From assembly GCA_038501625.1 (NCBI GenBank), contig JAZAYU010000011.1, positions 12,780,849 to 12,844,848 of the forward strand: 64,000 nucleotides of DNA, written 5' to 3'. The DNA is from Corbicula japonica (taxonomy: Eukaryota > Mollusca > Bivalvia > Venerida > Cyrenidae). The notes below the pieces were generated by a model. The model made no database searches. It saw only the letters and a program-made list of their open reading frames with translations, and was not told the DNA's origin. A program made the translations under genes and the position numbers. Positions 9,158-38,950 of this stretch are shown here, in pieces. Each line of letters starts with the position of its first letter. The first letter of the stretch is position 1.

Positions 9158-11023
9158 GCTTTTGGCGGTGGTGTTTTAGCCTATGTGAGATCTGATCTTC
9201 CAGCTGACAGAAAGAAACAATTAGAATTCAAGATTATTGAATCGGTAGGCATAGAAATTATTTTAAACAACTCAAAATGGCTTATTACTGGAGTCTATAG
9301 ACCCCCTAGTGAAAGCAGCTTAACATGTTTTGATGACCTTTGCAACTCAATGGATAAGATTACATCTAAATATGATAATTTTGTATACATAGGGGATTTA
9401 AACTTTGATATGCTTCAATACGACAGAAGCAAGCACCTACAGGACATCTGTGATATTTTTAACTTGACAAATATGATCAATGAACCTACTTGTTTGAAAT
9501 CAGATCCAAGCCTTATTGATGTTATTTTAACTAACAAACCAGACAAATGTCTTAATGTTTTAAATTTTACCTGCGGTCTTAGTGATTTTCATAACATGGT
9601 ATGTTTTCAGCTTGATTTTAATGTTCCCCCAAGTAAAACTAAGTGGATTTCTTATAGAAGTTTTAAAAATTTTGACATTGATGCTTTTTATAAAGATCTC
9701 AGCCAAATAGATTTTAAAAAGATTACACAGGAACCTTCACTAGATGCGGCTACAGAGGCCTTAGGCTCTGCAATTAAAACTTGTTTTGATAAGCATGCCC
9801 CAGTCAAAACTAAAAAACAACCTAGATGCCCGGCACCTTTTATGAACTCTGTACTCCGGAAGTTAGTTTTTCAAAAACACATGCTTTTTAATAAATTTAA
9901 GAAACAAAAGACTGATAAAAACTGGCACAAGTACAGGCAAATGAGAAACCTAGTTACAAAAATTAAACGAAAGTCAATTGGCCAATATTTTATTGATAGA
10001 TGTTCTGGTGGTACAAAAAGTAAAGATTTTTGGGCAACAATAAAGCCTTTTCTAACAAACAAAGGTACAATCGTTAAGAAAAATACAGTTCTCCTTGAAA
10101 ATGATAATTTAGTCACTGACCAAGAACAAATTTGTAACATTTTTAATGATTTTTATGTCAATGTTGCAAAGGATATTGGGGATGAATCTATAAAATTTGA
10201 TAATAACCATGAAAGTATATGTAAAATCAAAGAGATTATGGAAGATAAAAATTGCAGAGAACTGTCTTTTACAAATATTGATGAGAATTTTGTTTCTAAA
10301 CAACTGAACCAAATGAATGTAAAAAAAGCTACTGGAATTGACAATATTTCTGTTAAAATGGTTAAATTAGCTAGTTTTGTTATTTCGGAACCTATCTCTA
10401 ACCTTGTTAATAGATCTTTCACTGAATGTAGTTTTCCTGATTCAATGAAAATAGCACAAGTAGTGCCTTTACACAAGAAAAACAGTACATTAGACAAAGG
10501 AAACTATAGACCAGTCAGCCTGCTGCCAGTTATATCAAAGGTATTTGAAAGGGCCATGTACACTCAACTTATTGAACATTTTAGTAATATTTTTAATCCA
10601 CTTCTTGGTGCCTTCAGACCAGGTTATGGCTGTAGCACTACCCTTCTGAAGGTGGCAGAGGACTGGAAACAAGCTCTAGACGATAATTTTTATTTGGCTG
10701 CTGTGCTCATGGACCTTTCAAAGGCCTTTGACTGCCTACCACACGATTTGCTTTTGCTGAAATGTAGGCACTATGGTCTTACCGAATCCTCTGTCACCTT
10801 AATCCAGAGTTACCTCTCCTGTAGAAAACAATGTGTAAAATTAGGGGATAAATATAGCACTTTTCAGCATATTGTAAAGGGTGTCCCGCAAGGTTCTATA
10901 CTAGGTCCTCTTCTCTTCAACATCTTCATAAATGATATTTTTCTTTTGTTCACAGAAGCTCTTTATATAATTATGCTGATGATAATACTCTTTCATACCA
11001 AAGCAAATGCCCAAAGGACCTAG
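9158..11023 (+). pseudogene. LINE endonuclease-reverse transcriptase, frame 1 part
   Basis: The frame is open from 9158 (GGGVLAYVRSDLP), although its first possible initiator is only a GTG at 9185. It carries endonuclease motifs ITGVYRPP, GDLNFD and SDFHNMV, then reverse transcriptase motifs: NYRPVSLLPVISKVFE, GAFRPGYGCSTTLL, the first catalytic aspartate in LMDLSKAFDCLPHDLL, and GVPQGSILGPLLFNIFINDI. Near 10958-10962 the frame slips by one base and the last residues before the stop at 11023 are out of register. In life it would nick DNA and copy LINE RNA into the genome; this copy lacks the N-terminus and is frameshifted, so it should be inactive. Confidence 0.85.
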
Positions 11024-11805
11024 TACATACCCTTGAACAGGACTCCCTATGTCTCATAAATTGGTTTAAACTTAATCATATGAAAGCTAATCCAGATAAG
11101 TTTCAAGCCATTGCTCTAGGTCGTAAAACTAAAGATCTTAATATTTCTTTTAATCTGGGTAGCTGCTCTATTCAATGTGAGCCTGAAGTTAAATTGTTAG
11201 GTGTAACTTTCGATTTTATGATGAATTTCAATACTCACATATCAAATATTTGTAAAAAAGCAGCATGTCAACTTAATGTTATGAAAAGGATAGGTAGAAA
11301 TATAAACAAGTTGGGTAGACTCACTATGTATTACTCCTTTGTAATGTCAAACTTAAATTATTGCCCTTTGACATGGCACTTTACAAGCGAGACAAATGTT
11401 AAAAAGATAGAGAAGATCCAGGAACGCGCATTAAGATTTATTTATGAGGATTATCAAAGCCCTTATGATATTTTATTGGAAAAGTCTGGACTACCATCTC
11501 TAAAAACCCGGAGGATGAGAACAGTTGCCCTGGAGGCTTTTAAACTTTTAAATAAAATGGGACCAACTTATCTCCATGATCTATTACAATACAAGAATTC
11601 TACTTACAATTTTAGGTACAGAAACTTAGTAGAACTACCTACACCTAGAACAGAACGGTACGGTAAGAGCTCGTTCAGGTATTCCGCGGCCAGACTATGG
11701 AACTCCTTGCCAGCTGAATTCAGGGAATGCACTTCCTATAGTCAATTTAGCTCCCTTATAAAAAGCTGGGATGGCCCTGAGTGCAAATGTTCAGCATGTG
11801 GTTGA
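10960..11805 (+). pseudogene. LINE reverse transcriptase C-terminal part, second frame
   Basis: Continuation of the LINE polyprotein in another frame. The YADD catalytic box lies at 10972-10983 (context SLYNYADDNTLS), followed by the thumb (NWFKLNHMKANPDKFQ) and a C-terminal domain with YSAARLWNSLPAEF and a cysteine-rich end (PECKCSACG) before the stop at 11803-11805. No other stop interrupts it. A single-base loss just before YADD explains the split from the upstream frame; a sequencing error is also possible. Confidence 0.82.
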
Positions 11806-14215: not shown

Positions 14216-14446
14216 ATCCCAGCAAACATTTTATATCGGGCCGATGTTGGGCCGATATGGACATCTACATCGGGCCAACATCGGTTTTCACATCGGCACG
14301 ATATCGGATGTGCAACACGGCTCGATGTCGGCCCGACATTGGCTCAACAGCAAACATTTGCTATCGGCCCGACATCAAGCCGAGATAAATTTCTTTATCG
14401 GCCCGACATCAGGATTTCACATCGGCCAGATATCGGATGTTTGATT
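14216..14446. repeat. ATCGGCCCGATAT-rich element, left cluster
   Basis: Begins CCCAGCAAACATTTTATATC and ends with ATCGGATGTTTGATTGGG, an imperfect inverted pair. The interior is a set of short repeats around CATCGGCCCGACATCGG in both orientations. Related sequence lies at 30.9-31.6 kb. It may be a free-standing 231-bp MITE or the subterminal repeat zone of a larger element. Confidence 0.65.
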
Positions 14447-16686
14447 GGGAATTTTATGTCATATCGACACAGTATAGGTCATATCGTGGCGTTCCAGCAT
14501 TACTAGTGGATGAGGACCTCAGGTGAGCTAAAAAAAGGATTGAATAGAATAATAATATTTTATTACCAATCATGGGTCATTTACATGACATAATAATCAC
14601 AGTAAAAAAACTAACAAACAACGGTTTGAGTAAAATAGGATAATGTAAAATAGGATGATAATAAAATACAAGCTTAATTGGTATTAGTTTCAAACACCTA
14701 GACCTAGCTGCTATGTCTGCACTCTAGACTTTGTTATGAGTTAAGTGCAAGTGTAGAAATGCAGAAATATGCAGATAGGACCATAAACTAAGGGTAAGGA
14801 AAATAAGTAAATAAATAAATAAAGTGACAAATTAATACACTTAGGCTTTATAATTAACTTTTTACTGTATCAATAATAAACACTCATGTAATAGAGACAT
14901 TACAAAAAAGCCCACAGAAAAAATTCTTGCTATTGAAATAGAAATTTATATTTGTACACAGTAATTATGAACCTTTTAACAAACCTATAGACTTTTACTT
15001 TTACTTTTACCAGCATTATTCAACAATGCCCATCTTTCTGAGTAAATATAGTGCAAAAACCTAGCAAACAACAACACTATTTTTCAGGATCTTTAGAAGA
15101 CATTAGCCACACAAATTTGTAGTCATTAGACAAAAGTATTAAATTTGAATTAATGGTACTAGTTTTACTAAACAAAATATTTCTCTTTGAGTAGAAAAGA
15201 CATCACAGATCATTGAGAAATGTATCTCATCTTCAACACAAATATTCATACTTCAATATTTCACTAATGTGCCCTAATTGAAAATTCTAATCTTTGTTAA
15301 TAAGCTATGGACATCTCTATCTTTGACTACAGAAATTTTTTTTCTCTACAAAAAATATATTTAAATGAAGAATATGTTCGCAGTTTACCTGTTGTATTAT
15401 GAATATTAGAGTTCAAGTTAGCCTTAAACAATTCAATTAAATTTGTTATAACTAATACTGACAATTTTTTACTTGTGAAGTGCATTGGATAGTATTTAAA
15501 TGTTTAAAGACATGTTAGACACTAAAAACCCAAAAACAACTTTTACTAATACTAAATAAATAATTACTTTCTTGAAATGCTGCATATAACAAAGTACTAA
15601 CTTTTCCACTACGAAGTGGCCAATAGTATTTAACAGTATTACAAATGACATCGATGCAAAACGAATAGCAACCCATTTCTCCTATCATTGATTGATCTGT
15701 TCTTTAATAAGAGAGACAATTATAACATAAATTTACACTCTGTACACAACTTTATTTGCAGTTTTTATGTATGTTTGAAAAGATGTGCTCTAACTTTAAA
15801 ACAATTCAAACAAAATTCTTTAAATATATCAGTTGAGATTTTCAAAAACATCAATCCTAATTCAAATGTTTTGTGTGTTTGTATGCACTGATGCTCAACA
15901 TATTCAGTCTTAGGTAAAATATTTTTGCAAGCACTTAATATTTGGTATGGTAAAATTATTACCACAATAAATTAATGAAATTATGCACTTCTTTTAAGTA
16001 AAAATTATATTATTAAAGCATTATATGCATAATGTACAAAAGCTACCAACACGAAGACAGATAACAACTTGTCAAATAATAACAAGCTAGAGTATTTGTG
16101 ATAAGTGTCCAAGAAAAAACAAAATTCATATGTTTGGACACAACAGCTTGTACACAGTATTGATACATAGCATAGTAGTTCTTGCTTGCAAAAAAAAGGA
16201 TCCAGCTGCTAAAATGTCAATTCTAAGTCAAACAAGAACTTTAACATTCATAGTATTTAAGATTAAGTTATCAAACCAGTTTCTTATAGTAAGCAGACCA
16301 GACCATCTGAAAAAAATAATATTGTTGAAGCATGGAAGCAAAGCTGTAACCGACATGAGGTTATATGCACCCAACCCAAATATAATGGGATGCATAAAAA
16401 TGAGTTTTTTTAACTAAGACATGGACCATTCAGCAAGGACCCACCTATCAGAAAGCATCCAAATAATACAGGATCATATGATTAATGTGTCGACCTCAAA
16501 TAATCTACAGGGTGATGAATTCATGTTAGCAGATCATTCACCTTTTATTACCAACACTTTTATAAGTGAATTAATGAATTGTTGTTATTTAATGTTATGA
16601 AAAAGCAAAAGTTTCATGAGCCTTGCAATTTCAAATGAATTTTGTTCTGCCAGATGTTTTGTTTGCTTTGAAGAAATGTGTGAATG
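14447..16686. other. No gene seen; 3' flank of the DUF4806 gene
   Basis: AT-rich DNA lying downstream of the minus-strand gene that ends at 16687. Some of it is probably its 3' UTR. Short open frames at 15688 and 16130 show no family resemblance. Confidence 0.45.
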
Positions 16687-19600
16687 TTATTCTTCGGTTA
16701 GTTGAATCACTGGATTGTCTTGTGTCTTAGCAGCCCTCTTTTTTCGACCACCGTCACGATCCGAGGCTGTTCTAAACCACTCTCTGCAGTTTATCTCAAC
16801 TTCTGCTGATGTGCAACGTGCAGATCGCATAACTGCTTCTGAAATATTCAGAGTGGATACAAATTTTAGTTGTATTTTAAATATATAACACTTTCAGAAT
16901 GATTCAAACTCTACTGGGTTTGCCCACACTGGTGTTTGTACAGTGACCAAGTCGCATATGACACATAGCAGTGTTAATTTTTAGTGCAGGTCCGAGTCCT
17001 ATACTCATAAAATCTGGCTGGGACTCATAAAAAATTTAAATTTTTTGTCTCCAAATAAAGTATAAAGATAGGTTATGGGTAGTAGCTGAAAAATGATTAA
17101 AAATGTTAAAATATGCAATTAAGAATGTTTTAAATTTTGGTTGTGAATCTATTGCATTGCACCACTCCATTATGAGATATATACCCTGTCAATCTTTAAA
17201 TCAGCAGCTTTTATACTGTTGGAGTTCTGTACTGGACAAAATGCAATTCTGAAAAAACAACACAGAAGGGCAGTAATTCCAAATTTAGGCAATGGAGCGT
17301 TACCATTCTTGTGCATTGCACTTCTCCTCGATGAAATCTATCCACCTGAGAAGTTTCTTGTCGTGTCAATAGCTTGAATACTTTGAAGCTCTGCTTTGGA
17401 CAAAAATCAATTATGAAAAAGGGAAATAACTCCAAAATTTGGCAGTGGAAAGTTATGGTACTTGTGCACTGCACTTCTCTTCATTGAGATCTATCCACCT
17501 GTGGAGTTTCATGTCAATAGCTTGAATACCTTTGGGTTTTTGTTACGGACAAGAAAATACTGACGGACTGACAAAGCGGCAACTACATGCTCACCCATTG
17601 GGGAACATAAAAATTAAATATACATACTCTGCACAGCAGCTGCCAATCTGAGCGTCCCAAATGGGTGTTTCTGCTTTTTGCCATACCAATTGTACAATGT
17701 GGCAACAGCATTGGTCATACAATGCCGCAGAACCCGCCGACACATATCAGTTTTGTTTTGGCCACCCAATACAGACAGATGGTTTACCTAAACAGAAACA
17801 CATAGAGAAGATTATTAACACACTATATGCAAAGTTCATCTGTGGCTTGACCCTATAAACAATTATTGAAAAATTGGAAAAATTGTTCACTTACAGCAAG
17901 GATATTGTAAATTTTAAAGGGTTTTAAGCAATTGTCTAAGTTTCAAAGGTCAGTACTTATGAAAATAAATAAGAAAGAATTATGTAACTTGTCCTGAGTT
18001 TGACACTATACACAAAAAAGTTTGAAAAGCCTATGGTTAGAAAAGCAATATTACTGCAAATAATAATACATGTGTATACAATTGTAATGAATAAAGAAAA
18101 ACATGAAGCAAAAGCTGAGATTTTAAACAATGTCACGGACCTCGTTGACAGTAAAAGCTCTCATTTTCTTTGTAAAGTCCATCTTAAAATTAATTAAATA
18201 AAACAAACTGCATACCAAACCAGCAAATGTTGTCTCTTCAGACAGCTGTTCATTTAACACTATCATTTCTTCAACAGAGGTCACAGGAAGGTTGACCCCT
18301 TCTGGTAGTGTGGTCTGGTCTACAACAGACCCTGCAGCCAGAGTCCGTACAATACCCAGGACCTGACCAAGTGTGTCCTGCATGGTTGACTGTTGTTGAA
18401 GTATCTTCTCCATCATCGTGAATATCCTTATGTCTCTGGCTGGAAAAAAAAGTTGATGCAATTACTGTTCTTTGCAAAGCTGGCTGGGCTTTCAATTATT
18501 TTCTTTATTATAAGTTCTTTAAAGAAGGTGCATGCCTGCATAGTATTCAAAGTCCTCTATAAACAAGTCAATGGTGTTGATTTCAACACAGGAAATTCCT
18601 ACCCGTTCTGCAGTGATATTAGAATATTCAATAATTGGTTAGTCTGATTATGTGTTAGTTTACCATTTCAGAAAATCTAAGTTTTAATCATATGTTTTGA
18701 AATATTGTTACCTATCTTGTTACCATAGTACTTTCATGAAAACTAATTGATGTTCATATTTTACACATCGCCACTTATTTACTAGCATAAACATTTCAGA
18801 ATTCAGAATTTTTTTACATTTTTTCTTAGGTTTCTTTTCCCATATAAAAACATATATAATTTTGAGCCAAGGAAGAAAACAGACTGATGTGCCTCATCTT
18901 CACATTGCCATCTACTTACCAACTAACATTACCAATGCTCAAACAGATTAAAGATATTGAAGGATCAACATTTGTTGTTGTTTTTTTTATACAATTTCTG
19001 TTACCATAGTAACCACAATTTTGAATACAGTGGAAAAACAAAATGAAACAAGAGGTGTTTGTCAAACACAAATGCCCCCCCCCTGACGTGCAAGTGATAT
19101 CTATTAGCATTGAATTTAAATTTTTGGAAATTTAGAGACTTTTGTAAGCTTTAGCAATGAAGGGTACCAGTCATGAAAGCAATTTACAAGACGGTGGAAC
19201 TCCTATATATCAATAACCAGGTCATCCAATGAGAGGATTACATTTACCTCGACAAACATAAGCGCGTGTAGATTAACCTAGTCTAACACAAAGGATTTTA
19301 TTGTAATTTAAATCAAATATTCGCTATTGGCGGAGATATAGTAGCTCTAGTGTTATGTCAATTCCGGTAATGTGCAGGCTTTAGTGACCATCCATACGAA
19401 ACCAAAGCATTTAATAAACACAAGTGAGTGATAATCAGTGCCTATTTATGACACGGCATATATTGAAATAGTTTAAAATTAATGTTATGGATCATTAATA
19501 TATATCTTTACTTGAAATTGTCATGGGGAAAAATAATCACAACTTTACACTGAGAAGTATTTTATTTTATTATACAAATAAACATAAAAACGTTGTCTAG

Positions 19601-22600
19601 TTATTGATCGAACAAGGTTTTTTGTTGTCAAGGCCACCGTGACCTTGACCTTTGACCTACTGACCCCAAAACCAATAGGGGTCTTCTACTGGCCACGACC
19701 AACTTCCACACCAAATATGAGGTCTGTATCACAAAGCGTTGTCTAGTTATTGATCGGACAACGTTTTTGTATGCAAAGGCCACTGTGACCTTGACCTTTG
19801 ACCTACTGATTCTAAAATCAATAGGGTTCTTCTATTGGTCATGACCAACCTCCACACCAAATATGAGGACTGTATCACAAAGCGTTGTCTAGTTATTGAT
19901 CGGACAAGGTTTTTGTGGTCAAGGCCACTGTGACCTTGACCTTTGACCTACTGACCCCAAAATCAATAGGGGTCTTCTACTGGTCATGACCAACCTCCAC
20001 ACCAAATATGAGGACTGTATCACAAAGCGTTGTCTAGTTATTGATCGGACAAGGTTTTTGTGGTCAAGGCCACTGTGACCTTGACCTTTGACCTACTGAC
20101 CCCAAAATCAATAGGGGTCTTCTACTGGTCATGACCAACCTCCACACCAAATATGAGGACTGTATCACAAAGCGTTGTCTAGTTATTGATCGGACAAGGT
20201 TTTTGTGGTCAAGGCCACTGTGACCTTGACCTTTGACCTACTGACCCCAAAATCAATAGGGGTCTTCTACTGGTCATGACCAACCTCCACACCAAATATA
20301 AGGACTGTATCACAAAGCGTTGTCTAGTTATTGATCGGACAAGATGTGGTCTACGGACCGACATACCGACCGACATACCGACCGACCGACATACCGACCT
20401 ACCGACATGTGCAAAGCAATATACCCCCGCTTCTTCGAAGGGGGGCATAATTATTACCATCTGTACAATATAACCTATTAATATACAAACTTTCATTAAC
20501 CTAGCTTAAATAGTTTTCCAGTTACACTGGGATCCGGTAGGGAACTAATAACAAGAACAATCCATGAGTGTGATGCTCAGCTGCGGGAACCGTGCCTAGT
20601 TGGGGCTGCATTTTTCTACTCACATTTTAAGAATGATCCTGGCAATGGTATTTGAATAGTTGAAAAAAATTTGGCGGACTGCAGCGGACGAAGGGGCTAT
20701 GTTTCCCCCCAAAACAGCTTAGCTAAAAATTTTAGACTGAGATTATATTTACAAATAATTATAGGAGCTGGTATGATTCAGGCAAGTTTCAATTATATTT
20801 TTATGTCATAATTTGATTTTTTCAGATTATCTTAGAGATTTTCATGTTCGCAGTTCATAGGCAACATAAGATTGAGATAATATGACAAAATATATTTCCA
20901 AATTCCAATACAGAAGACGTTTCTATAAATAACATACCAATAGTGCTGGGAGCTGGTGCAGAAGAAGTCATTGAGGTAGATTCTGTAGAATTATGTATTC
21001 TGTCAGTGTGGGAATGGTCTGTATTGAATATAACAAGCAGTGGTTTAAATTAGCCCATAGAACATGAAATGATATAATTCAGTAATTGTGCAAGATAAAC
21101 TACTTGCACACATACACACTCATGATCTTAGGCCACAGCATTCTTATGTGATCATCTGGAAACTGATTTACTGATTCGGGTCACTGTGACCTTGACCTTT
21201 AACAGATTGACCTCAAAAATCAATAGAAATGTAATAAACAATTTACGTATTCAGCAACTATTTAGCCCCTTTTCCAACAATTAAAACTGTACTTTGAGAT
21301 AAACTGATTTTTTTGCAATGCCACTTGAAATTTTATTTTACTAGCAAATAGTTTTCACAGTTATCTGCCATGAAAATGGTCAGTTATCTACATTTATGAC
21401 CCCAAATATATGTGTCAAGTTTCGCCTGTAATTGTATTCAATTGATAAACATTAAGGGTCAAACGGACAATTTATAAGAAAGAGAAAAAATGTGAATTTC
21501 AAAAAGTCCTTTAATAATAAAATTGGCACACAATTTTTAATTTTTAAACAACGCTCACCTGAGACAAAAGGTGATGCCTGACATGTTTTTCTGGATATTT
21601 GGCCTAGTGACCTAGATTTTAACCCAACATGATCAATATTCGAAGTTGGCCTAAATATTGCCAAGACAATCATTCTTAAGTTTCATCAATATTGTGTCAC
21701 AAATGTGGCCTCTAGAGTGTAAACACGAATTTTCTCAGATTTGACCAGGTGACCTATTTAATGACCAGACATGACCCATATTCAAACTTGGTCTAGATAT
21801 TGTCAAGACAAACATTCTGACCAAGTATCATCTCATATCACTATTGTGGTTAGAGAGTAAACATCAAATGTTGACGCACGACGGATTATGACAGACAACC
21901 ACTGATCACAATAGCTCACTATGAGCACTATGTGCTCAGGTGGGCTAAAAATTCAACAGTCTGTGGAATAAGGATTCTGAATTGGTTGCTATAAAGTCAC
22001 AGTTTCATGAGGACCACTGTGTGTACATGCTAAATGTGGTTTCTTTGGCAGAAGAAGTGTTTGCTCACAAAAAATCTGATTAACCCACAACAACTGCTTA
22101 TATTGCAGAGTATTGCAGACTAATTCAAATTAATAAAACTTATTTATACCTGATGGTAACCTGACGGCAGTATGCCTTGGTGTATCGGGAGCAGATTTCT
22201 GACCAAAGGCTGCACCTGTCAATGAAGGAGTTTCTCTTGGAGGATTTGGCAGTGCACCTTTCTTATTAGACGGCTGTGACCGACTTGTTCCAGATTCTGT
22301 GTGTTGATTGTTGTAACACTGTTCATCTTCATCGGAAGAATACACTCTGGGCCTAGAAATGATTTGTCAGTACATTCTAAATTGGTAAAAAAAGGACATC
22401 CTGAGCTGATCAATTTGCAAGTCAATTATCAAATTACTGAACATTTAATGAGAATCAAGCAAAATTGAATTTATATTAAAATATACCTTAAAACATGTAA
22501 AAATATTTCTTTTAATATGTATACTATGTCCACTTAAGGTATATGGGAAGAATCAGATATCATAAAATAGGGGCAAATTAGTAATAACTTAATGAGAAAA

Positions 22601-25037
22601 CTAAACATTTTGGCCCAACTTTTAAATGTTGATACTTAAATATGTAGACACAATTACGTAAATATGTAGATTTTTAAAAAATACAGTTGATTCTCAGTAA
22701 CTCAAACTTGCTTATCTCAAAATTCTGCAGAAGTCGAAGAATGTTTATAGTCCTGTCAAAATTCCTTCTTTATCTATAAATTTTGACATACTGAGACTCT
22801 GGGTATGTCAAAAGGATTTGTTGTTCCCGACAATTGAATTCAAATGTTTTTTTCATCTCATTAAGTTGAAGTGTGAAAACACCCGACTGATCAAAGTCGG
22901 CAACATCAAGGTGGGATATTGTCAAACTGGTGTACACATGTCACATTGTTTGTTGTAACTGCAGGTCATCATGTGTAATTGACACGTTGTTAGAATTGCT
23001 ATAATTGATACTTAGATGACTGATTCTTAAACTAAGATTTAGTTGAGAATTTTGCGATAAAGCACTACAAAAGACTTAAGTAGCCCATTTTTAGTAACCT
23101 ATGAATACCATACATGTGATATCCCGCCGGGAAACTGAAAATTCCCGATTTTTGGGCCTTTATCCCGTTTCCCGCTTTCAAAGATCGAATTCCCGCTTTT
23201 TCGCCTTAAGTAAAAAAAGAAATAAAATGTCAACCATAAAAGTCCAAAATCGAGCCGATACACCGTCCTTATCTCGGACTTGACTACATAACGGCTTTAT
23301 CAAAATATGCCGAACATTTAATCATTGTCATTAAAAGGATTAACGCGATAATTAGGTGACACTTGACCGATGAAGTTGTTAATTGGATAATTGGTTGTTT
23401 GCACAGGCAATTCTTATCGAAATCACAAGTTTATGATGCGTTTAATTTGCCACCTGAATGCAATTAGCGGACTAGTTAAACAATAAGCGGTGTCTTGTGA
23501 AGTTCGTTTAAAAATAACAGATGTAAGTATCCGAATAAAGGGACAGTATCGGCGAAACATTTTATTAGTTTTTTGATCAACAAAAATTGTTTTAACACGT
23601 TTTGTAATTGAGTGAATATTATTTGTTACGATGGATGATAAAATGGACAGCCTTTCAATTTTAAACCTGACAGTTCTCTAATGAAGGATGCTCAAAATGC
23701 ATGTAAACTCTACAAAGAGAAAAATGGAGATGAGACTGGAAAAATATGACCTGTGACTGTGGAAAAACATGATCTGTAACTGTAACTGAGTTTAAAAGAT
23801 ACATTGTATATGATATTTATAATATTCTTGTGATGTGATGAGTAGTCATGAATAAAGTAATAGAAAACAATGTCATTGTAAAATGTTTTAAATGTAAAGG
23901 TTTTTCATCAAATTTTGCAGAACGCGCACTAAATATAAAGGTTTTTCATCAAATTTTGCCGAACGCGCGCTGAAATTGAAGTCGATAAAAAATTCCAGTT
24001 TTTGGACCCAAATTCCAGCTAAAATTCAATTAAATTCCAGTTTTGGCCCATTTCAGTTATCACATGTATGGAATACAGAAATGTGAATTTCCAGTTCATG
24101 AAAGATGCTACTTTTGGTTTCATCCGATACTTTCAGGTTTGTTGGATATTGTCTTCTTCACATTTTAGAGCTAATCAATTTCTGCTTATTTTCTATCCGA
24201 TTAGAGATCAGATTCAGTTTCAGATTAGCCTATTTAAGCTGTAAACCTTCTTCTAGAAGACTTAGTTTTTAATAATAATACATTTAAATCACATGTACCT
24301 TTTGTGGGCGCGCTTAGATTTTCTGTTGTGCTCTTCTTCCTCGTCATTGTCAGACAGGGCTGTAGTGCATAGATCTGACTCATTTTCCGCTTTTTTCAAT
24401 TTGCTCCTGACAGCATCATAGGAAGCTTAAAGCAGGAGAAAAAATTGAAACTTTGCTGCATATATGTAAAAGGAGAACAGCTAAAATGACTATAAATATT
24501 AAGAAAATCCAGTTATTCATGTAATTTTTTTCAGCAAATTTAATTAGGTAAATACCAAATTACATGTAATAGACTAATTAACCTACACTAATATTATACT
24601 AAATTTCAATCACCATGGGTATACTTTGGCATATTTAAGTGAAACAATGCTTAGGAGTTTCTGTTGCTGAAACAAGGTGCACAACACCTTTCATTAACAG
24701 AAACCAGTCAGACAATTTGCGTACTTCATTTTTTGTGGACTTTATTTTCAACTAGAAATGTGTCCTTCAGAATATGAATAGTAGGAGTTTTTGTTAAAAA
24801 AAGTAGGAAAAGTAGGAAAAAGAAGGAACACCTGAATATCTTACCATTTCGATACAATTCTCGTATGGGTAATGCAACCCATGTTTCCCCCGGCTCTGTT
24901 TTTTGCCGGACCATGTTGTTCAGTTTGGAGGTAATTCGTATATGTGACGGCCACACAGCACAACTATTGCCCTCCAACCAGTTATGTGGAATAACAGCAA
25001 TTTCATTATTGTCAGTAAATTCTACCAGTATGTACAT
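16687..25037 (-). CDS. DUF4806-domain protein, seven exons, complete
   Basis: I rebuilt this gene from splice sites and matching phases. Coding exons on the minus strand: 25037-24845, 24425-24299, 22352-22150, 21018-20938, 18439-18216, 17787-17628 and 16838-16687, total 1140 nt, 379 residues, with GT-AG introns throughout. Exon 1 starts MYILVEFTDNNEIAVIPHNW, the usual opening of this invertebrate family. Exons 2-4 encode an acidic-basic then Ser/Pro/Thr-rich linker (residues 65-201). Exon 5 (202-276) has a coiled-coil-like stretch and LPVTSVEEMIVLNEQL; exon 6 (277-329) has LSVLGG, RRVLRHCMTNAVATLYNWYG and KKQKHPFGTLRLAAAV, together the DUF4806 domain. The tail is basic (GGRKKRAAK). Function is unknown; related genes are often transposon-associated. 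It lies 3 kb downstream of the transposase gene on the same strand. Family call is from memory of the consensus. Confidence 0.82.
17210..17612. repeat. Fragment of a bivalve interspersed repeat in DUF4806 intron 6
   Basis: Two diverged units of about 180 bp, with GAGTTCTGTACTGGACAAAA and CTCTGCTTTGGACAAAAATC and a shared TCTATCCACCTG motif, finish in CATGCTCACCCATTGGGGAA, an end type shared with the tandem-repeat elements. Confidence 0.5.
19035..20455. mobile_element. Tandem-repeat-bearing non-autonomous element B
   Basis: Left end near AAGAGGTGTTTGTCAAACAC; a core of five units with starts at 19598, 19741, 19887, 20032, 20177 and 20322 (143, 146, 145, 145, 145 bp); then a CCGACATACCGACCGA microsatellite and a right-end palindrome CCCCCGCTTCTTCGAAGGGG. 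Units contain GTGACCTTGACCTTTGACCT. It sits in intron 4 of the DUF4806 gene. The last three units are nearly identical, so the array expanded recently. Class assignment (pearl/Helitron-like) is inference. Confidence 0.8.
21450..21955. repeat. Interspersed repeat fragment in DUF4806 intron 3
   Basis: Diverged units with GTGACCTAGATTTTAACCC and ACATGACCCATATTCAAAC, ending GTGCTCAGGTGGGCTAAAAA. A similar end (CTCAGGTGAGCTAAAAAAAG) is at 14519. Related to the element at 52 kb. Confidence 0.5.
23108..24071. mobile_element. 964-bp element with CCATACATGTGATA terminal inverted repeats
   Basis: CCATACATGTGATA at 23108-23121 is exactly mirrored by TATCACATGTATGG at 24058-24071. Just inside each end are related ATTCCCG/ATTCCAG-rich stretches. 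The interior has a roughly 50-bp direct repeat (GGTTTTTCATCAAATTTTGC twice, 23900-23960). No transposase. It lies in intron 2 of the DUF4806 gene. Confidence 0.65.
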
Positions 25038-25429
25038 TGCTAAAACTTAAACATCAAAACCTGTATTAGTGTATTTTCAGATGTATATAAAAATTTCTTT
25101 TTTGAGCAATATTTCAATGTGAGTGTTGTTTAATACTTACAGTAGTAGAGGTCCTTTTAGTTGAACTATCTATTTTAAGTCTTGATGACCTTGACCTATG
25201 AGCAAGTGACCCTAAAATTAAGTGTCTTGCTAACCATGTATAACTTTTCAAGTTATCGCATCACTGATAGGCAGACAGACAATATGATTACTATAGCAGT
25301 CATTTTAAATAAGCATGGGACTGCTGGACATGTCTGGTAAAAATTGGATTAATTCAGTTGCATACTATATTTGATTTGCTGAAAATGATTACAGACTTCA
25401 AAATACTGTAATATTGACTGGTCAGTTAG

Positions 25430-25860
25430 TTTAGTTTAAACATATTTTATTTCAATCAATATTCAAGATTTACAATTAAAACAAGTACATAGGAAATGAT
25501 GAAAAAGGATCAGAACCGAAAGCATACACGTTTTCTGCAGCCAGTGTAATAATACTTGGGACACTTGGTCACTTATCTAATCAGAGATTTGAAGGATGTA
25601 AGTGAAGGCACATTCTGTTGTTCGGGAGAAAGATTGTTCCAGTCTCTTAGCGTGGATGGTAAAAAGGAAATATAGTATAGAGTAGTGCGGGCATGAATGC
25701 CTTAAATATTAGAGGTGTTACGGAGGTTGTACCGAGAAGCTTCACCAACAGTTTGGGGAACTAGAGAAGACAGATAGGCCAATTTTCAATTTAAAGACTG
25801 GTCAGTTAAAGAAAGAAAGGACAGGAAAAATGCTTTTAATTTATATCTGTTTGGAAGCAA
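25430..25860 (-). pseudogene. Relic of a LINE C-terminal region
   Basis: Read on the minus strand, about 25700-25570 gives SFLPSTLRDWNNLSPEQQ and a following PSLTSFKSLIR then a stop, a conserved C-terminal signature of CR1-like LINEs. Upstream SRYNLRNTSNI is interrupted by a stop, so it is decayed. It lies just upstream of the DUF4806 gene. Confidence 0.6.
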
Positions 25861-25925
25861 GTTAGTTCCAAAGTAATCCTTAAACCTAGAAGACAGAAAT
25901 ATTAAAATTATTAATATGTTTTAAA

Positions 25926-26584
25926 TACCGTATAGCGGGTTATTTCTGCGGTCATAAATTTCTGCGTTTTGCCCTCAAAAATGGATGCAAAAGTTTCTGC
26001 GGTTTTTATTTCTGCGTTTTCGGTTCCCGTGAAGGATAAATTTCTGCGGTTCATAATAGGGTAAGGTGTCGTAAGAATAATATGATTGTGATATAAGCAT
26101 ACTTAGGGAGACAATCATCTGGGTGCGGTAATCAGATAACTTCTGTCTCTGTTACTGTTATTTGTGAAATAATATACAAACTGCATATAATTCAATATTT
26201 TTAATCATGGGTCAATTCCTGCTACTCAATTTATTTTATCAAAAAATTACAAAGATATTATTTACCGATGAAAACCAACTCTCAAACAACTATTCAATTA
26301 AATTGAATGTTTGAGCAATGTTTGAGCAAATGTCGCGTTTATACTTTGCCTATATGAAAACGATTTTCGGTAATTGATTGTAATTATTTTACAGTGTCTG
26401 TATTGTGAAACGGATTATCTCGAACATGGCGACTCCACTGCTTTTCGCTTGAAAATGAGATAATATTTTGCGATTTAAATTTCTGCTGGTGTCTTTTTTC
26501 TGCTGGATTTATTTCTGCGATTTCATCCAAAGACCGCAGAAACGCAGAAATTTGGCACCCGCAGAAATAACCCGCTATACGGTA
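25926..26584. mobile_element. 659-bp element with TACCGTATAGCGGGTTATTT inverted ends
   Basis: The first 25 or so bases (TACCGTATAGCGGGTTATTT) are mirrored by AAATAACCCGCTATACGGTA at the end. TTTCTGCG repeats crowd both subterminal regions (about five copies). The terminal nonamer TACCGTATA is shared with the smaller MITEs at 46527 and 56869. Non-coding. Confidence 0.8.
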
Positions 26585-26725
26585 ACAATATGCAAAGTGT
26601 AAAAATCACACATTTTTTCCAACAAAAAGCCTTCAGTGCTTTCCCAATACTAAAATGAAGGCCCTAAGAACAACGATAGATAATATTATTCCCATTTATC
26701 AGTGTTCCCACTTTTCTAAATATTT

Positions 26726-27691
26726 GGGGTCAATGTAGAGTCAAGTTACCTATGCTCGGCCAGTCCAATGCTCGGCCACTTTAGTTTACATCTGTTGTAT
26801 ATCAAATTCAAGTTTGAAATGGAAAGTAAATTGTTTGTTTTTTGTTGAACCCAACATGACATTGTAGAAAGAAAGCCAGGTCAGCATCATCAAAATGCGG
26901 ACAGCAGCCGATAGCTTGCAAGTAATAACAGATGCTGGTTTATCTTAAACTCTAAACCAAAACATATTTCTTAAAAAAACATAACATAATGTACATTTAA
27001 TCGGTTGGGAATTGTTGTGGAAAAATGTTACCTTAAATATCCATTTAAATAATTATGAAATGATAACACAGTTTTTTCTTAAAATGATGTCTAAATCAAC
27101 ACCCCACCCACCAAATAAACACTGGAGTAAAACAAGAACCGCACCACAAGAATAGTCGGTACTATGAAAAAATTGTTAAACTCAAAAATTTATTAAAGAT
27201 CATTTTTATGTTTCAATTCACTTGATTAATTGGTTATATGGATAATGTTTGCAACTTCTTTATAATTATTCATTCAGCAGTGCTGAAATTAGAAAACATC
27301 AGCATAAAGGAAGGTATGTATGAATCTATAGAACAAAATAAACACTTAGTGGATGTAAGTTCTCAATAACTCCCATTATTTAAGATATTTAATTATTATT
27401 CTAATATTTTATAACCTTAAATTTTAAAATTTACCGTTAATTGGCTTGTAAACTACCTGGCCGAGCATTGGACCAAATCTACTGAAATTTAGTTGTGTTG
27501 AACCTGTTAAAAACCGCACCGATATTACTCATTAAATGACGTCATCCAGGCGCTTGCATGTATGATGTAATTTTGTAAATACATGGTGACTTCATAACAA
27601 CATTAAACATTAAAGGTCGGTTGGTAAATCACATAGTAGTAGAAAATAAGTTATGAAACTGGCCGAGCATAGGTAACCTGACTCTACCCCC
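26726..27691. mobile_element. 966-bp element with GGGGT...CTCGGCCAGT inverted ends
   Basis: GTTACCTATGCTCGGCCAGT near the left end is mirrored by ACTGGCCGAGCATAGGTAAC at the right, with similarity extending to about 35 bp (GTAGAGTC against GACTCTAC). A second inner pair (CAATGCTCGGCCA; TGGCCGAGCATTGG) lies inside. Non-coding. It occupies most of the gap between the DUF4806 gene and the transposase. Confidence 0.75.
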
Positions 27692-28120
27692 AACCAAAAA
27701 CATTTGGGTGTACTGTACACAATGCATGGGGTAGAGCAGCTAGACAACTGTAGTAGCAAGCAAATTTAAGTCTATATATCAATTTTTACAACATCTTAGA
27801 ATAATCAATTATTCATCAGGCACCATTAATCTTCATATTAATACCATTTATAAACTGAATGCTGATTTGCTGCTATAATATTAAAAGGTATTTTAACCAA
27901 CTGAACATTTTTTTGTTTCTCTTTTATACCCTTTTGCAAACCTCGGAAGCTTATGTATACATACGCAGCCATTTCATCACACAATCTATAGACTGTTTCA
28001 GTATTATAGTAGTTTTCATTGTTTACTGTATGTGTAAGCACGTAAATGGCGGATTTTGTATGCAATTTCAACATTTTGTGTGAAAATTACGTACCTCTGT
28101 ACATGAATGGAAACACTGAT

Positions 28121-30175
28121 TTATAACGTATGAAGCAGTGGGATAGACACAAAAGAGTCTTGGAAAGGTAGCAGGACACATTTACATGTTATATCCATCA
28201 ATTTACAACACTTTAATTCCCTGGACATATCTGAAACCTTTAAAATCCTCAAATCTTTTGACTGCAGTGGATATTCAAAGAAACTTTCTGCATGTAAAAA
28301 CTCTTCATACACAACAAACTTGTCATTTTGAGCATCTTCACACAAAATGTTCCGTATCATTGCCATTTTGTTTCCAATCATGATACAATTGTCTCCTTGA
28401 AAAACAGATAAAAACACAATGGGTAGATGAATTTCCTTGAACTGTAAGAAGTTGTGTTTATCAGGAGGTAATGGACCATTCCTATGCTCTCTCTTAACTA
28501 GACCAGAAGATGGGATATTGGATTTTTCTGTAAAATCATAATTCTCTGAAAGCCGTCCAATTATCTGTTGCAATGGATAATTTGGTTTGCGCACAAGTCT
28601 CTTAAGTCTATGAAGGAAACTTTCGAATACAAAGGCTGAATAATTTTCAAGAGGGCCAAATGTTTCAACATCAGCAGCTAGATGCACAAGACCATGAACA
28701 TTATAGACTACCATATCCTGACCATATAGTCTAGCAAAGTCTGTAACAAATAGTCGTAGAATTTGATTTGCATATTCAGAATAATCTTTATAATACAATT
28801 TGCTTGACAGGCAGTAAATTCCCACATACAGCAGCATAAAATGCCTGTAGATCGCTGGGGCAAGAACACCCTGTAAGCACAGCGGGCCAGTATATAACAA
28901 AAATTGACGAAACTCGGTGGCTTTCCACCTGTCAATATCAAAAATTGATCTGCCTTTTCGAAGAAATTCTCTTGGAAGATGCTTTCGCAATCCAAGCAAG
29001 CTGTCAGATATGCGTCGAACTGCTGACGCAGATATTCTTTGTCCATCAAGTGGGCCTTTCATCCAAAGAGTAAGCAAACGCTTAACAACACCCAGGCACA
29101 CAAGGTGCATGAAATCAAGTGGGAACTGTGTTACCATTCCAATTTTGAGTTCACTGAAAGGAGAATGCCCTGTGTGATGTGCAGCATTGGTCATCTCATC
29201 AAATTGGACATCAGTTCTAAGGTCTGCATTTATTTCTGGAAATGTAAGCTTTCCATCCCATACACCTTTTGTCACACATTTATCACAACCATAATAACCA
29301 GTATGCCCTTTTACTTGTTTGACAAAAGCACGTGCTGGTGTGTCACAAATAACGCTTGAAATTGCAATTTGAAATTCAAAGTTTATATCACCTATTGTGG
29401 CAAAAATAGACCTTTGCTCAAGCATTTTCATTTCATTAACAAAATCTTGCAAGAAACTTTGAACATCACTTGGTTTATGATTCCCAACAAAAATACCTAT
29501 AATAAAAGGTTCTTGAGTAAAGGGGTGTACAATTCTACCAAGTATTGGCCAGAGCTGGGTGTTGGAGCTTTTAAACAAAGGGACTCCATCAATATTTACT
29601 TGCATTTCCAGTGTTTCATTCCTATTTGTGAACTGGTCAACAGAAATCTTTGCTAGCTGGTCTCTTATACCATGCTCTACTCCAAAATGGTAATAGTGAC
29701 CACCTTCAATCTCAGAAATTTCTATGTTTTTCTTTGTTTCCATAAGAGTTCTTGGGTCTTTTGGGAGGCATTCATGAAATGGATACAAAATCTTTAGTAA
29801 TTCCCTCAAAGCCGAATGAGTTATGTTATATTTTGCAGCCCATTTTGATAACAGATGCTTTAAATCAACATTTTCAACATCAGAGTCAGAGTAATCATCC
29901 CCTGACGAATCAGATTGACCTAAAACATCATATTCTGTATCACTATCTTGGAATGCCAGAGTTTCTTGTGAATCGAACAAACTGTTAGCTCTTTCACTCT
30001 GAGTACCACAATGAAAGCTCATGGGTTGGTGAAAAGTAGATAATGGGGCACTGGTGGAATGACTGGAACTGGATACAAATTCCTCTTCATTATAAACATG
30101 TTTTATGTGTCTGGAAACATTCGTTTTGACCTTACGGTATGATTTCCAGTATGTTTTATCTCTAGTTTTTGACAT
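28121..30175 (-). CDS. Tnp2/CACTA (Plavaka-like) transposase, intact
   Basis: A single uninterrupted 684-residue frame with ATG at 30175. The N-terminus (1-105) is basic then Ser/Asp-rich and probably disordered. The transposase core follows: residues 191-213 with MQVNIDGVPLFKSSNTQLWP (candidate catalytic D196), VICDTPARAFVK (D278), a CDKC knuckle (C297, C300), FPLDFMHLVCLGVVKRLL (D354, H357), VVYNVHGLVHLAADV (H494, H498) and a Glu-bearing SAFVFESF (E518). These match the order in Tnp2-type RNase H-like transposases of the CACTA/EnSpm superfamily; catalytic assignments are inferred. The enzyme would cut and join element ends. Absence of introns and lack of stops suggests recent activity or selection. 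Upstream of, and parallel to, the DUF4806 gene. Confidence 0.8.
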   Translation of the reverse strand: MSKTRDKTYWKSYRKVKTNVSRHIKHVYNEEEFVSSSSHSTSAPLSTFHQPMSFHCGTQSERANSLFDSQETLAFQDSDTEYDVLGQSDSSGDDYSDSDVENVDLKHLLSKWAAKYNITHSALRELLKILYPFHECLPKDPRTLMETKKNIEISEIEGGHYYHFGVEHGIRDQLAKISVDQFTNRNETLEMQVNIDGVPLFKSSNTQLWPILGRIVHPFTQEPFIIGIFVGNHKPSDVQSFLQDFVNEMKMLEQRSIFATIGDINFEFQIAISSVICDTPARAFVKQVKGHTGYYGCDKCVTKGVWDGKLTFPEINADLRTDVQFDEMTNAAHHTGHSPFSELKIGMVTQFPLDFMHLVCLGVVKRLLTLWMKGPLDGQRISASAVRRISDSLLGLRKHLPREFLRKGRSIFDIDRWKATEFRQFLLYTGPLCLQGVLAPAIYRHFMLLYVGIYCLSSKLYYKDYSEYANQILRLFVTDFARLYGQDMVVYNVHGLVHLAADVETFGPLENYSAFVFESFLHRLKRLVRKPNYPLQQIIGRLSENYDFTEKSNIPSSGLVKREHRNGPLPPDKHNFLQFKEIHLPIVFLSVFQGDNCIMIGNKMAMIRNILCEDAQNDKFVVYEEFLHAESFFEYPLQSKDLRILKVSDMSRELKCCKLMDITCKCVLLPFQDSFVSIPLLHTL

Positions 30176-30920
30176 CCTTGGTGAAATCTTGGCAAAATAC
30201 CGGTAGATGTAAACGATATGATGAAAATCGTGCTTCTTCAGAAGTACTAAGCCATAAACAATAGAATCAATTGGAGAAAAGCTGAAAATTACTGCCCAAA
30301 GGCTTCGTCTACATCTACAGGTATTATGCCGAAATGTTAACAGGACAATATCACCCCAATATCAACTCGCGAAATCCTATGACATTCATACAGTTAATCA
30401 TGATTGCGATTTATATTTGAAGCAAAACAACACTCACACTAAAAACTGGGAAAAGGGTTGGCAAAATATAATATCTTTCACCTTTTAAATACGTTTCCAC
30501 AAAAAATTTAGGCCTATACTGTGTTTTTTAATAATTTTGAACTAGTACAAATTCTGAAATTTCTGTCGTCTGCACAAGTCATGATCCCGCAGTTAATAAA
30601 AATAAAAAAAAATAAATTAAATATTTTCTACAGCGTTTCCCACAAAGTAAACGTAGTTAAATGTCAAATACAAAAATGAAAAACATTTAGAATTAATATG
30701 TGATAAGTTAGACATTTATTCCATTTTTCTCACTTGATCATTAGCTGCAAAGGGAAACAACCAATGTTGTACTAAGAGTAAGGCAGTCATCAGGATTACC
30801 CTTCCTGGGAAACAGAATGATTATATTCATTTGATTACCAAAATAACCCAATTAACTGCCCACAAAATTTTAATTTTGATTATTATAATAACTGTTTATT
30901 TTGAATTATGAATTCATTAC
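30176..30920. other. No gene seen; upstream of transposase
   Basis: AT-rich non-coding DNA that should contain the transposase promoter. No clear TATA box or terminal inverted repeat recognised. Confidence 0.4.
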
Positions 30921-30929
30921 TATAGGACT

Positions 30930-31621
30930 GGGTGTTTTGTACAAAATCGGCCCGCTATCGGACCGACATACTCGTAATTATTGTGTCAATTAAACTATAC
31001 AATACGTGGTTCATCTACTCATTCAGAAGTTAATAAAATATATATCATGGCTATTAGGAAACAGGATTTCTCCAACAGGTTTTCATTGGCCATACATCAT
31101 TACAGTGGCACTTAACCCACTGCCAATATGCCGTTGAAGTATAAATTGGGGAAGGAAAACTCTCGAGGACAGAAGCAGGAATCGAACCTGGGACACCTTG
31201 AACCCGAGTCAGGCACTCAACCATATCACCAAAGGGTTAACCCAACAGCGAGGCTGTTTATCAGTTTAAATTATTGACTACTAATGTTCATTGTCAAATA
31301 TGATATCGGACCAATGTCGGGCCGATATCCTAATTTCATTGCTATGGGGTTAGTGTTTTGTACAACATCGGGCCAATATCAGACCGATCTGTCAATGAAG
31401 GTTTTAAATAGGTTTATACAATTTTTTGAAACAAAATTAAATATATAGCAATTCTGAATCATAATTTTATGAACCTTTCTGAGATTTGTGTTGTATTAAG
31501 AGAAAAAACAAGTTATGTGCGTGACATGGATGTCGGGCCGATATCGGTCCTACATCGGCAAACCCTGCCGATATGCCATCATCCTGCAGATATCGGCCCG
31601 ATATGATCAAGTTTGTTGGGG
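30930..31621. repeat. ATCGGCCCGATAT-rich cluster, right
   Basis: Short repeats around ATCGGCCCG/CGGGCCGATAT recur at about 30948, 31305, 31365, 31530 and 31595. The right end, read inverted, is CCCCAACAAACTTGATCATA followed by TCGGGCCGAT, similar to the left cluster's CCCAGCAAACATTTTATATC followed by GGGCCGAT. A tRNA-type SINE sits inside. May be a MITE cluster or the subterminal zone of a larger transposon. Confidence 0.55.
31085..31255 (-). repeat. tRNA-derived SINE
   Basis: On the minus strand it shows a tRNA-like head with A-box-like GATATGGTTGAGTGCC and B-box-like AGGTTCGATTCCT at typical spacing. This is a Pol III internal promoter; no intact cloverleaf acceptor stem was found, so it is a SINE rather than a tRNA gene. 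Confidence 0.65.
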
Positions 31622-37183: not shown

Positions 37184-38950
37184 TGTCAAACTATTGCATT
37201 AACCCTGCCATGGTGGCGATCATGGAATCTGTAAACTATTGCATTAACCCTGCCATGGTGGCGATCATGGAACCTGTAAACTATTGCATTAACCCTGCCA
37301 TGGTGGCGATCATGGAATCTGTAAACTATTGCATTAACCCTGCCATGGTGGCGATCATGGAATCTGTAAACTATTGCATTAACCCTGCCATGGTGGCGGT
37401 CATGGAACCTGTAAACTATTGCATTAACCCTGCCATGGTGGCGATCATGGAACCTGTAAACTATTGCATTAACCCTGCCATGGTGGCGGTCATGGAACCT
37501 GTAAACTATTGCATTAACCCTGCCATGGTGGCGGTCATGGAACCTGTAAACTATTGCATTAACCCTGCCATGGTGGCGGTCATGGAACCTGTAAACTATT
37601 GCATTAATCCTGCCATGGTGGCGGTCATGGAATCTGTAAACTATTGCATTAACCCTGCCATGGTGGCGATCATGGAATCTGTAAACTATTGCATTAACCC
37701 TGCCATGGTGGCGATCATGGAACCTGTAAACTATTGCATTAACCCTGCCATGGTGGCGATCATGGAACCTGTAAACTATTGCATTAACCCTGCCATGGTG
37801 GCGATCATGGAACCTGTAAACTATTGCATTAACCCTGCCATGGTGGCGATCATGGAATCTGTAAACTATTGCATTAACCCTGCCATGGTGGCGATCATGG
37901 AATCTGTAAACTATTGCATTAACCCTGCCATGGTGGCGATCATGGAATCTGTAAACTATTGCATTAACCCTGCCATGGTGGCGATCATGGAACCTGTAAA
38001 CTATTGCATTAACCCTGCCATGGTGGCGATCATGGAACCTGTAAACTATTGCATTAACCCTGCCATGGTGGCGATCATGGAATCTGTAAACTATTGCATT
38101 AACCCTGCCATGGTGGCGATCATGGAATCTGTAAACTATTGCATTAACCCTGCCATGGTGGCGATCATGGAATCTGTAAACTATTGCATTAACCCTGCCA
38201 TGGTGGCGATCATGGAATCTGTAAACTATTGCATTAACCCTGCCATGGTGGCGATCATGGAATCTGTAAACTATTGCATTAACCCTGCCATGGTGGCGAT
38301 CATGGAATCTGTAAACTATTGCATTAACCCTGCCATGGTGGCGATCATGGAACCTGTAAACTATTGCATTAACCCTGCCATGGTGGCGATCATGGAATCT
38401 GTAAACTATTGCATTAACCCTGCCATGGTGGCGATCATGGAACCTGTAAACTATTGCATTAACCCTGCCATGGTGGCGATCATGGAATCTGTAAACTATT
38501 GCATTAACCCTGCCATGGTGGCGATCATGGAACCTGTAAACTATTGCATTAACCCTGCCATGGTGGCGATCATGGAATCTGTAAACTATTGCATTAACCC
38601 TGCCATGGTGGCGATCATGGAACCTGTAAACTATTGCATTAACCCTGCCATGGTGGCGATCATGGAACCTGTAAACTATTGCATTAACCCTGCCATGGTG
38701 GCGATCATGGAACCTGTAAACTATTGCATTAACCCTGCCATGGTGGCGATCATGGAACCTGTAAACTATTGCATTAACCCTGCCATGGTGGCGATCATGG
38801 AACCTGTAAACTATTGCATTAACCCTGCCATGGTGGCGGTCATGGAACCTGTAAACTATTGCATTAACCCTGCCATGGTGGCGATCATGGAACCTGTAAA
38901 CTATTGCATTAACCCTGCCATGGTGGCGATCATGGAACCTGTAAACTATT
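37184..38950. repeat. 45-bp minisatellite, about 39 units
   Basis: An extremely uniform 45-bp tandem array. Only three positions vary: GCGATC or GCGGTC, GAATCT or GAACCT, and one AATCC for AACCC, all transitions. Variant units cluster (GGTC in units 5 and 7-10; alternating TCT/CCT units near the centre-right), as expected from local slippage or gene conversion. Because 45 is divisible by three, one frame stays open on each strand. Confidence 0.97.

Follow-up and report, generated by a model that had tools for sequence, protein, structure and literature searches.

Genes and ends of the element

The window analysed here is a stretch of 64,000 nucleotides from the bivalve Corbicula japonica (G000:C11:12780849-12844848), taken from a host assembly of 1.07 Gb in 1,630 contigs. 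Within it lies a DNA transposon with two genes on the same strand, one for a transposase and one for a DUF4806 protein, enclosed by palindrome-bearing ends (Table 1). In the reading direction of the genes, the right end (31620) is followed by the transposase, the DUF4806 gene and the left end (14218). A preliminary description of this DNA had suggested a possible two-gene DNA transposon of ~17.4 kb, and its gene content was borne out: the 684-residue transposase is an intact open reading frame (ORF), the adjacent and co-oriented DUF4806 gene does have seven exons, and both are on the minus strand, the transposase being upstream. The DUF4806 gene, running from 25037 down to 16687, is intact, has GT-AG introns and encodes 379 amino acids, and its joined exons matched Pfam PF16064 with an E value of 4e-7.

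Table 1. Coordinates of the transposon, its ends, genes and nested inserts in the window
Feature	Position	Strand	Remarks
Whole mobile element, family A, window copy	14218..31620	-	17,403 bp including 3 nested inserts; genes run right to left; ends common to 10 other copies in unrelated flanks
Right end (5' side), CCCAACAAAC terminal repeat and dispersed subterminal palindromes	30946..31620	-	10/10 fetched copies end there
Transposase, 684 aa	28121..30175	-	intact ORF, ATG 30175, stop 28121; candidate catalytic D196, D278, E518; C297/C300, H494/H498; predicted RAG1/Transib-like core and C-terminal BAH-like domain (AlphaFold2 and PDB matches)
DUF4806 exon 1, conserved N-terminal domain	24845..25037	-	
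DUF4806 exon 2	24299..24425	-	
DUF4806 exon 3	22150..22352	-	
DUF4806 exon 4	20938..21018	-	
DUF4806 exon 5, long helix and start of predicted DUF4806/BEN domain	18216..18439	-	helix by comparison with the P0122 model
DUF4806 exon 6, predicted DUF4806/BEN domain core	17628..17787	-	
DUF4806 exon 7, C-terminal part, stop	16687..16838	-	
Left end (3' side), CCCAGCAAAC terminal repeat and subterminal ATCGGSCCGAT array	14218..14431	+	sequence, palindrome counts
Nested short element, CCGTATAGCGGG inverted ends, TA flanks	25928..26582		absent from C273, C59, C15
Nested insert, ~0.95 kb	23120..24070		among 10 fetched copies, common only to C1535
Nested insert with 145-bp tandem array	19049..20448		absent from C231, C488, C329, C273, C15, C59, C31

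Copies of the element and their target sites

The window copy was compared with 20 fetched stretches around 10 other copies (C137, C145, C31, C231, C488, C1535, C329, C273, C59 and C15), for two of which the left side was missing, as the C31 stretch and the C1535 contig stop before 14218. All 10 shared the right end at 31620 and all eight with a covered left side shared the left end at 14218; none ended inside the interval, and the flanking DNA differed between copies. The DUF4806 gene was present in all 10, in C1535 as its first four exons up to the contig end, and the check proposed in the preliminary description, a search for copies ending inside the interval without this gene, found none. 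The segment 14218-31620 is one mobile element, a complete DNA transposon; the interval first proposed (14216 to 31621) had located it correctly, with exact ends 2 and 1 bp further inside.

Shared parts were 96.5-99.97% identical between the window and the copies in BLAST blocks, the most diverged being C59, C15 and C273, and C137 was identical to the window in all 3,195 coding bases compared, with 9 differences in 13,255 non-coding bases. Such near-identical copies point to a probably recent activity of the element. In the genome searches for transposase and DUF4806 pieces only the best candidates were scored; among these, the window transposase gave 65 matches, 10 of them (its own included) complete at 98-100% identity, and three further ones (C15, C30 and C16) broken or split at 96-97% identity. 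Empty sites for all three nested inserts of the window copy exist in other copies, and the window element probably moved after the ~0.95-kb insert had hit it, because this insert is common only to C1535, whose flank differs. Another copy of the left 1,379 bp (99.6%) was seen at C269, where it runs into a stretch of N.

Target-site duplications were scored in the 12 elements with both flanks known, comprising nine of family A (the window type), two of family B (described below) and one short relative. Eight of them carried a duplication, which was of 2 bp in six (TT, TA, GT, AG, GT and AA) and of 3 bp in two (TCT and TTA). Permutation of the flanks gave a chance expectation of 1.83 in 12, and eight or more were reached in 16 of 200,000 permutations.

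Transposase

The transposase presents the DDE, C(2)C and H(3)H signature of the CACTA/CMC group, and D196, D278, C297, C300, H494, H498 and E518 were each invariant (35/35) in an alignment of 35 transposase family members (A1). Motif order together with the predicted fold suggests which of the acidic residues are catalytic. The AlphaFold2 model, with a predicted local distance difference test score (pLDDT) of 84.8, has the RAG1/Transib-like catalytic fold of CMC/CMCT (CACTA-Mirage-Chapaev-Transib) transposases. The name "Tnp2-type" given to this protein in the preliminary description needs correction as regards Pfam: the window protein had no match to Transposase_21 (Tnp2) and matched DUF4218 weakly (E 0.0076). 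Transposase_21 was matched by four of the 35 aligned family members at E 0.1 or better (best 0.0013), and DUF4218 by 24 of them. A PDB sequence search with the transposase profile produced no match, nor did transposase patterns reveal a relative in 23 stretches of GTDB contigs and three stretches of IMG/VR contigs.

DUF4806 gene and its predicted fold

Reading frame and splice sites of the DUF4806 gene are kept in eight of 11 copies (window, C137, C145, C31, C231, C488, C329 and C273); the gene is broken in C59 and C15, and in C1535 it is cut by the contig end after four exons. On the whole genome PF16064 gave only two matches, both below the cut-off, the domain being divided among exons. At E 1e-3, a homologue search with the single protein recovered nothing from 3,499 candidates. 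Under a less strict limit, a profile search scored 7,993 candidates and recovered 17, which come from bivalves, fish and a tick; Dreissena polymorpha and Mya arenaria are the sources of two of the best named ones. A PDB sequence search with the protein gave a single match, at E 1.1.

By structure modelling, the DUF4806 domain is predicted to adopt the BEN fold that characterises BEN-domain proteins. The N-terminal domain in exon 1 (MYxxVEF...VPxNW...WPP) is conserved from bivalves to fish, and the structural matches seen did not span it. AG dinucleotides lie a few bases upstream of the start codons of both genes in families A and B, an observation that proves nothing on alternative splicing.

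Pairing of the two genes in diverged families

Three further families with diverged transposases were recognised. Family B is represented at C24 by a 10,474-bp element with the ends CCCAACAAAC and GTTTGCTGGG and a TTA duplication. Its transposase, broken by a deletion and a frame change, is 49-55% identical to that of the window, depending on the program, and its DUF4806 exons have the strand and order of the window element: exons 1, 2, 5, 6 and 7 were recognised at ~38-60%, a short motif was all that identified exon 3, and exon 4 was unrecognised. A second family-B element, at C23, consists of two halves that match C24 at 98.6% and 98.5%, with a 34-kb insertion between them. This locus had been considered as a counter-example to the pairing, and was rejected as such, being a family-B element split by the insertion. 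In families C (C235, transposase 45% identical) and D (C167, 46-47% identical) a DUF4806 gene starts ~504 and ~839 bp past the transposase, respectively, on the same strand. Altogether, DUF4806 was found downstream and on the same strand in 17 of 17 loci whose transposase match includes a piece no shorter than 470 residues and no less than 45% identical (13 of family A, two of B, one of C and one of D), lying at C23 beyond the insertion.

Divergence at nonsynonymous sites (dN) between family A (window) and family B (C23) was 0.42 for DUF4806, computed from exons 1, 5, 6 and 7 only, and 0.41 for the transposase. Synonymous sites were saturated, with proportions of differences (pS) of 0.88 and 0.76, respectively. 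Since the dN values are alike and synonymous sites saturated, both genes have diverged together under similar constraint. Both are under purifying selection between A and B, and the transposase-DUF4806 pairing is old and kept over the four diverged families.

A host gene of the family-A DUF4806 type at a fixed site was looked for and none was found: the 103 matches to the family-A protein fall in family-A copies, at C24, C23 and C324, and in a weak piece at C901. In one family-A copy (C8) the contig begins before a transposase could appear. Pieces of DUF4806 exons similar to the Mya homologue P0122 gave 113 dispersed matches, with exon 1 of this type matched only at C235 and in family-A copies, so that the other DUF4806 loci may be deletion derivatives. 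More generally, the dispersed pieces may be derivatives, parts of other elements or domesticated genes. Alongside more distant transposases (36% identity or less, such as C12, C278, C13 and C85) no DUF4806 was seen, the nearest being at C24:2957541 (+), 20 kb from the transposase at C24:2937443 and on the opposite strand.

Some of these loci are complex in themselves. The insertion at C23 measures 34.25 kb and ends with ~1-kb inverted repeats that are ~80-88% alike, and the element halves overlap by 7 bp at the junction; our guess is a large Polinton-like element. A rearranged family-B derivative at C324 has DUF4806 exons 5-7 and the terminal 0.8 kb in an orientation opposite to the usual layout. 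Further dispersed DUF4806 pieces occur at C901 and C2, and many of the 113 matches lack both a detected transposase and a matched exon 1.

Terminal repeats and palindromes

The termini of family A start with CCC (CCCAGCAAAC and CCCAACAAAC), as do those of family B (CCCAACAAAC and CCCAGCAAAC). The repeat clusters lie outside both genes, and the likeness of their outer ends when one is inverted, as originally noticed, is supported by a local alignment score of 58, compared with a maximum of 35 in 200 shuffles. The window has 11 occurrences of the palindrome ATCGGSCCGAT, counted with at most one mismatch, where 0.25 would be expected; none of 100 shuffles reached this number. Of the 11, 10 lie within the terminal 300 bp (left) or 720 bp (right) of the element. 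Counts for the 5' end, 3' end and interior were 5/5/1 in the window element (ends of 750 bp), 3/4/0 in C24 (ends of 250 bp) and 5/3/1 in a 1,004-bp relative at C1445 (ends of 300 bp). Families A and B are 76-77% identical over their terminal 91 and 127 bp, and little else can be aligned outside both genes.

Matches to the left end were detected at 27 places in the genome, 15 at 98-100% and 12 at 71-77%. The element at C1445 is non-autonomous, being too short for either gene, and has both ends, an AA duplication and the palindromes; it is 91% alike to a sister at C27, and the two have only the first 269 bp in common with the large element. Because palindromes are kept at both their ends, these short relatives are probably moved in trans. 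The resemblance of the left cluster to a free miniature inverted-repeat transposable element (MITE) fits such relatives. A separate MITE at this side is ruled out, as the eight covered copies all have the left end joined to the element without a break and the short relatives share the first 269 bp only.

Putative role of the DUF4806 protein

We consider it probable that the element is an autonomous cut-and-paste transposon of the animal CACTA (TRC) lineage, the second protein of which is a BEN-fold analogue of TnpA that binds the palindromes. In this scheme the transposase, with its CMC/RAG1-like DDE fold, would cut at the CCC...GGG ends, and insertion with a 2-3 bp stagger would give rise to duplications of 2-3 bp. 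The DUF4806 protein would bind as an oligomer to the ATCGGSCCGAT arrays just inside both ends, and the bound proteins would bring the two ends together, direct the transposase to them, or both; possibly, the protein would also control the promoter of the element, as TnpA does for plant En/Spm. The DUF4806/BEN protein would thus probably recognise ATCGGSCCGAT and be required for transposition, with ATATCGGSCCGATAT as its putative palindromic target DNA. A role as a subterminal-binding factor, already put forward in the preliminary description, gains support from the BEN fold predicted for the domain. In the available part of one report, crystals of the BANP and NACC1 BEN domains on palindromic DNA are described, and BANP in its full-length form is an oligomer with selectivity for unmethylated CpG (PMC11472053); isolated BEN domains are described as binding in a methylation-insensitive manner in the available part of another (PMC10206803). 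As BANP and NACC1 domains bind palindromic DNA and BANP selects CpG, we infer that the CpG-bearing palindrome array is a plausible BEN target.

Several observations weigh against this proposal. Four of the 12 elements, the window copy included, lack a target-site duplication. Young family-A copies show no bias to synonymous change, with seven nonsynonymous and three synonymous differences in the C273 transposase and four and none, respectively, in its DUF4806 gene. Among the candidates scored, dozens of DUF4806 exon matches are without a detected transposase (C860, C113 twice, C336 twice, C323, C105 and many more), and no DUF4806 match lies close to the transposase pieces, all broken or partial, at C88, C312 (two), C1502, C726, C646, C215, C139, C49, C17 and C77. 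As to the fold, the structure model is that of the Mya homologue P0122 and not of the window's own protein, the best BEN match by Foldseek alone was no better than E 1.2, and the window protein has no BEN match in Pfam. Finally, the fetched stretches of families C and D did not reveal the element ends, and the palindrome link comes from families A and B and the short relatives.

Other explanations were weighed for the copies and for the second gene. Production of the copies by segmental duplication or assembly artefact might be entertained, given an assembly in so many contigs and the similar numbers of differences from the window in C31, C231, C488 and C329. It is, however, hardly credible for copies that have both end bases in common, lie in different flanks and show 2-3 bp duplicated in eight of 12 cases, and segmental duplication itself is ruled out, as the flanks of the copies differ. 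It is also very improbable that DUF4806 is a mere passenger, captured by the element from the host. DUF4806 proteins are indeed known in bivalves, fish and a tick, and many pieces lie away from detected transposases in the host genome; against this, DUF4806 has the same position and orientation in four families whose transposases are only ~45-55% identical, it has diverged between A and B as much as the transposase has, and its frame is kept in eight of 11 copies, with two broken and one cut by the contig end.

In the main rival reading, the element encodes its DUF4806 protein as a regulator or anti-silencing factor, involved in promoter control, chromatin recruitment or opposing host silencing, and outside the end-pairing machinery. 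In the available parts of two reports BEN proteins recruit chromatin-modifying factors (PMC10206803, PMC11075544), and the 5'-side palindromes extend over ~0.7 kb in the place expected for a promoter. Plant TnpA, moreover, switches a methylated promoter back on and represses one that is active, as stated in the available part of PMC1636069; since TnpA thus acts on its own promoter too, regulatory and end-binding roles are compatible. Nevertheless, the 3' end, which should hold no promoter for these genes, has palindromes at the same density, and they are kept in the 1,004-bp derivative too short for either gene, and we regard a role outside end pairing as unlikely, if less so than passenger status. 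End binding by a TnpA-like DUF4806 protein is the reading that we prefer.

Relation to known systems and significance

By motif, fold, CCC ends and duplication length, the element belongs with the animal TRC branch of CACTA/EnSpm. In En/Spm the transposase ORF is upstream of the second gene, as it is here; to our knowledge, TnpA has not been described as a BEN protein. The CCC ends of the present element differ from the CACTA ends of En/Spm. In maize, both element-encoded proteins of En/Spm, TnpA and TnpD, are needed for transposition according to the available part of PMC1636069, and here, too, a second protein gene lies inside the element. The palindrome arrays resemble the short-repeat arrays inside both ends of CACTA elements (PMC8978399); for plant CACTA, the available part of that report gives a target-site duplication of 3 bp.

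Likenesses to the animal TRC element SmTRC1, as presented in the available part of its report (PMC1636069), include CCC at the ends and 2-bp duplications in seven of 14 copies, compared with 2 bp in six and 3 bp in two of 12 here. The SmTRC1 transposase is related to Transposase_21, a domain matched here by the four aligned family members mentioned above. In that part of the report a short SmTRC1 protein is argued to play a TnpA-like DNA-binding role, and the candidates are said to resemble neither TnpA nor any sequence from the TRC elements of other animals (PMC1636069). SmTRC1 differs in its size of 4.5 kb and in short proteins that come from alternative transcripts (PMC1636069, available part). 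The elements described here are of 10-17 kb, with palindromic arrays and a separate, downstream, seven-exon DUF4806/BEN gene.

Sequence identity of the transposase to Transib, ProtoRAG and RAG1 is ~10%, and its duplications are of 2-3 bp, unlike the 5 bp of Transib and ProtoRAG. The second protein of the ProtoRAG/RAG1 system is RAG2-like, and the one here has a predicted BEN fold. BEND6, Insensitive, Bsg25A, BANP and NACC1 are host transcription or boundary factors, whereas the present protein, with its predicted BEN fold, is transposon-encoded and, unlike them, begins with an N-terminal domain that had no match among the structures seen.

What is new is the identity of the second gene. No report of DUF4806 or BEN genes inside CACTA/EnSpm elements was found among the titles and abstract beginnings listed in searches of the open-access literature, a scope that excludes Repbase reports, where prior notice is possible. 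With its predicted DNA-binding fold and a matching palindromic array, DUF4806 offers a concrete candidate gene family for the TnpA-like second protein of animal TRC elements; if this is true, DUF4806 gains a function, BEN domains are linked to transposition and an animal CACTA system is opened to cell tests. A wider scenario, which we put forward as speculative and rather doubtful, is that animal DUF4806/BEN proteins arose and spread as subterminal-binding partners of CACTA-type transposons, that palindrome recognition was first selected on transposon ends, and that at least part of the host BEN-like repertoire (DUF4806 genes of fish, Hydra and arthropods) is domesticated from transposons or left over from them. 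A loose parallel exists in Hydra, where DUF4218 and DUF4806 both figure in enriched-domain tables in the available part of PMC7642931.

Other features in the window

Two overlapping open frames at 9158-11805 correspond to a non-LTR-type (LTR, long terminal repeat) retrotransposon, with RVT_1 matched in the first (E 8e-21) and no Pfam match in the second. At 37188-38950 there is a 45-bp tandem repeat of 39 copies (98% matches) with long open frames on both strands.
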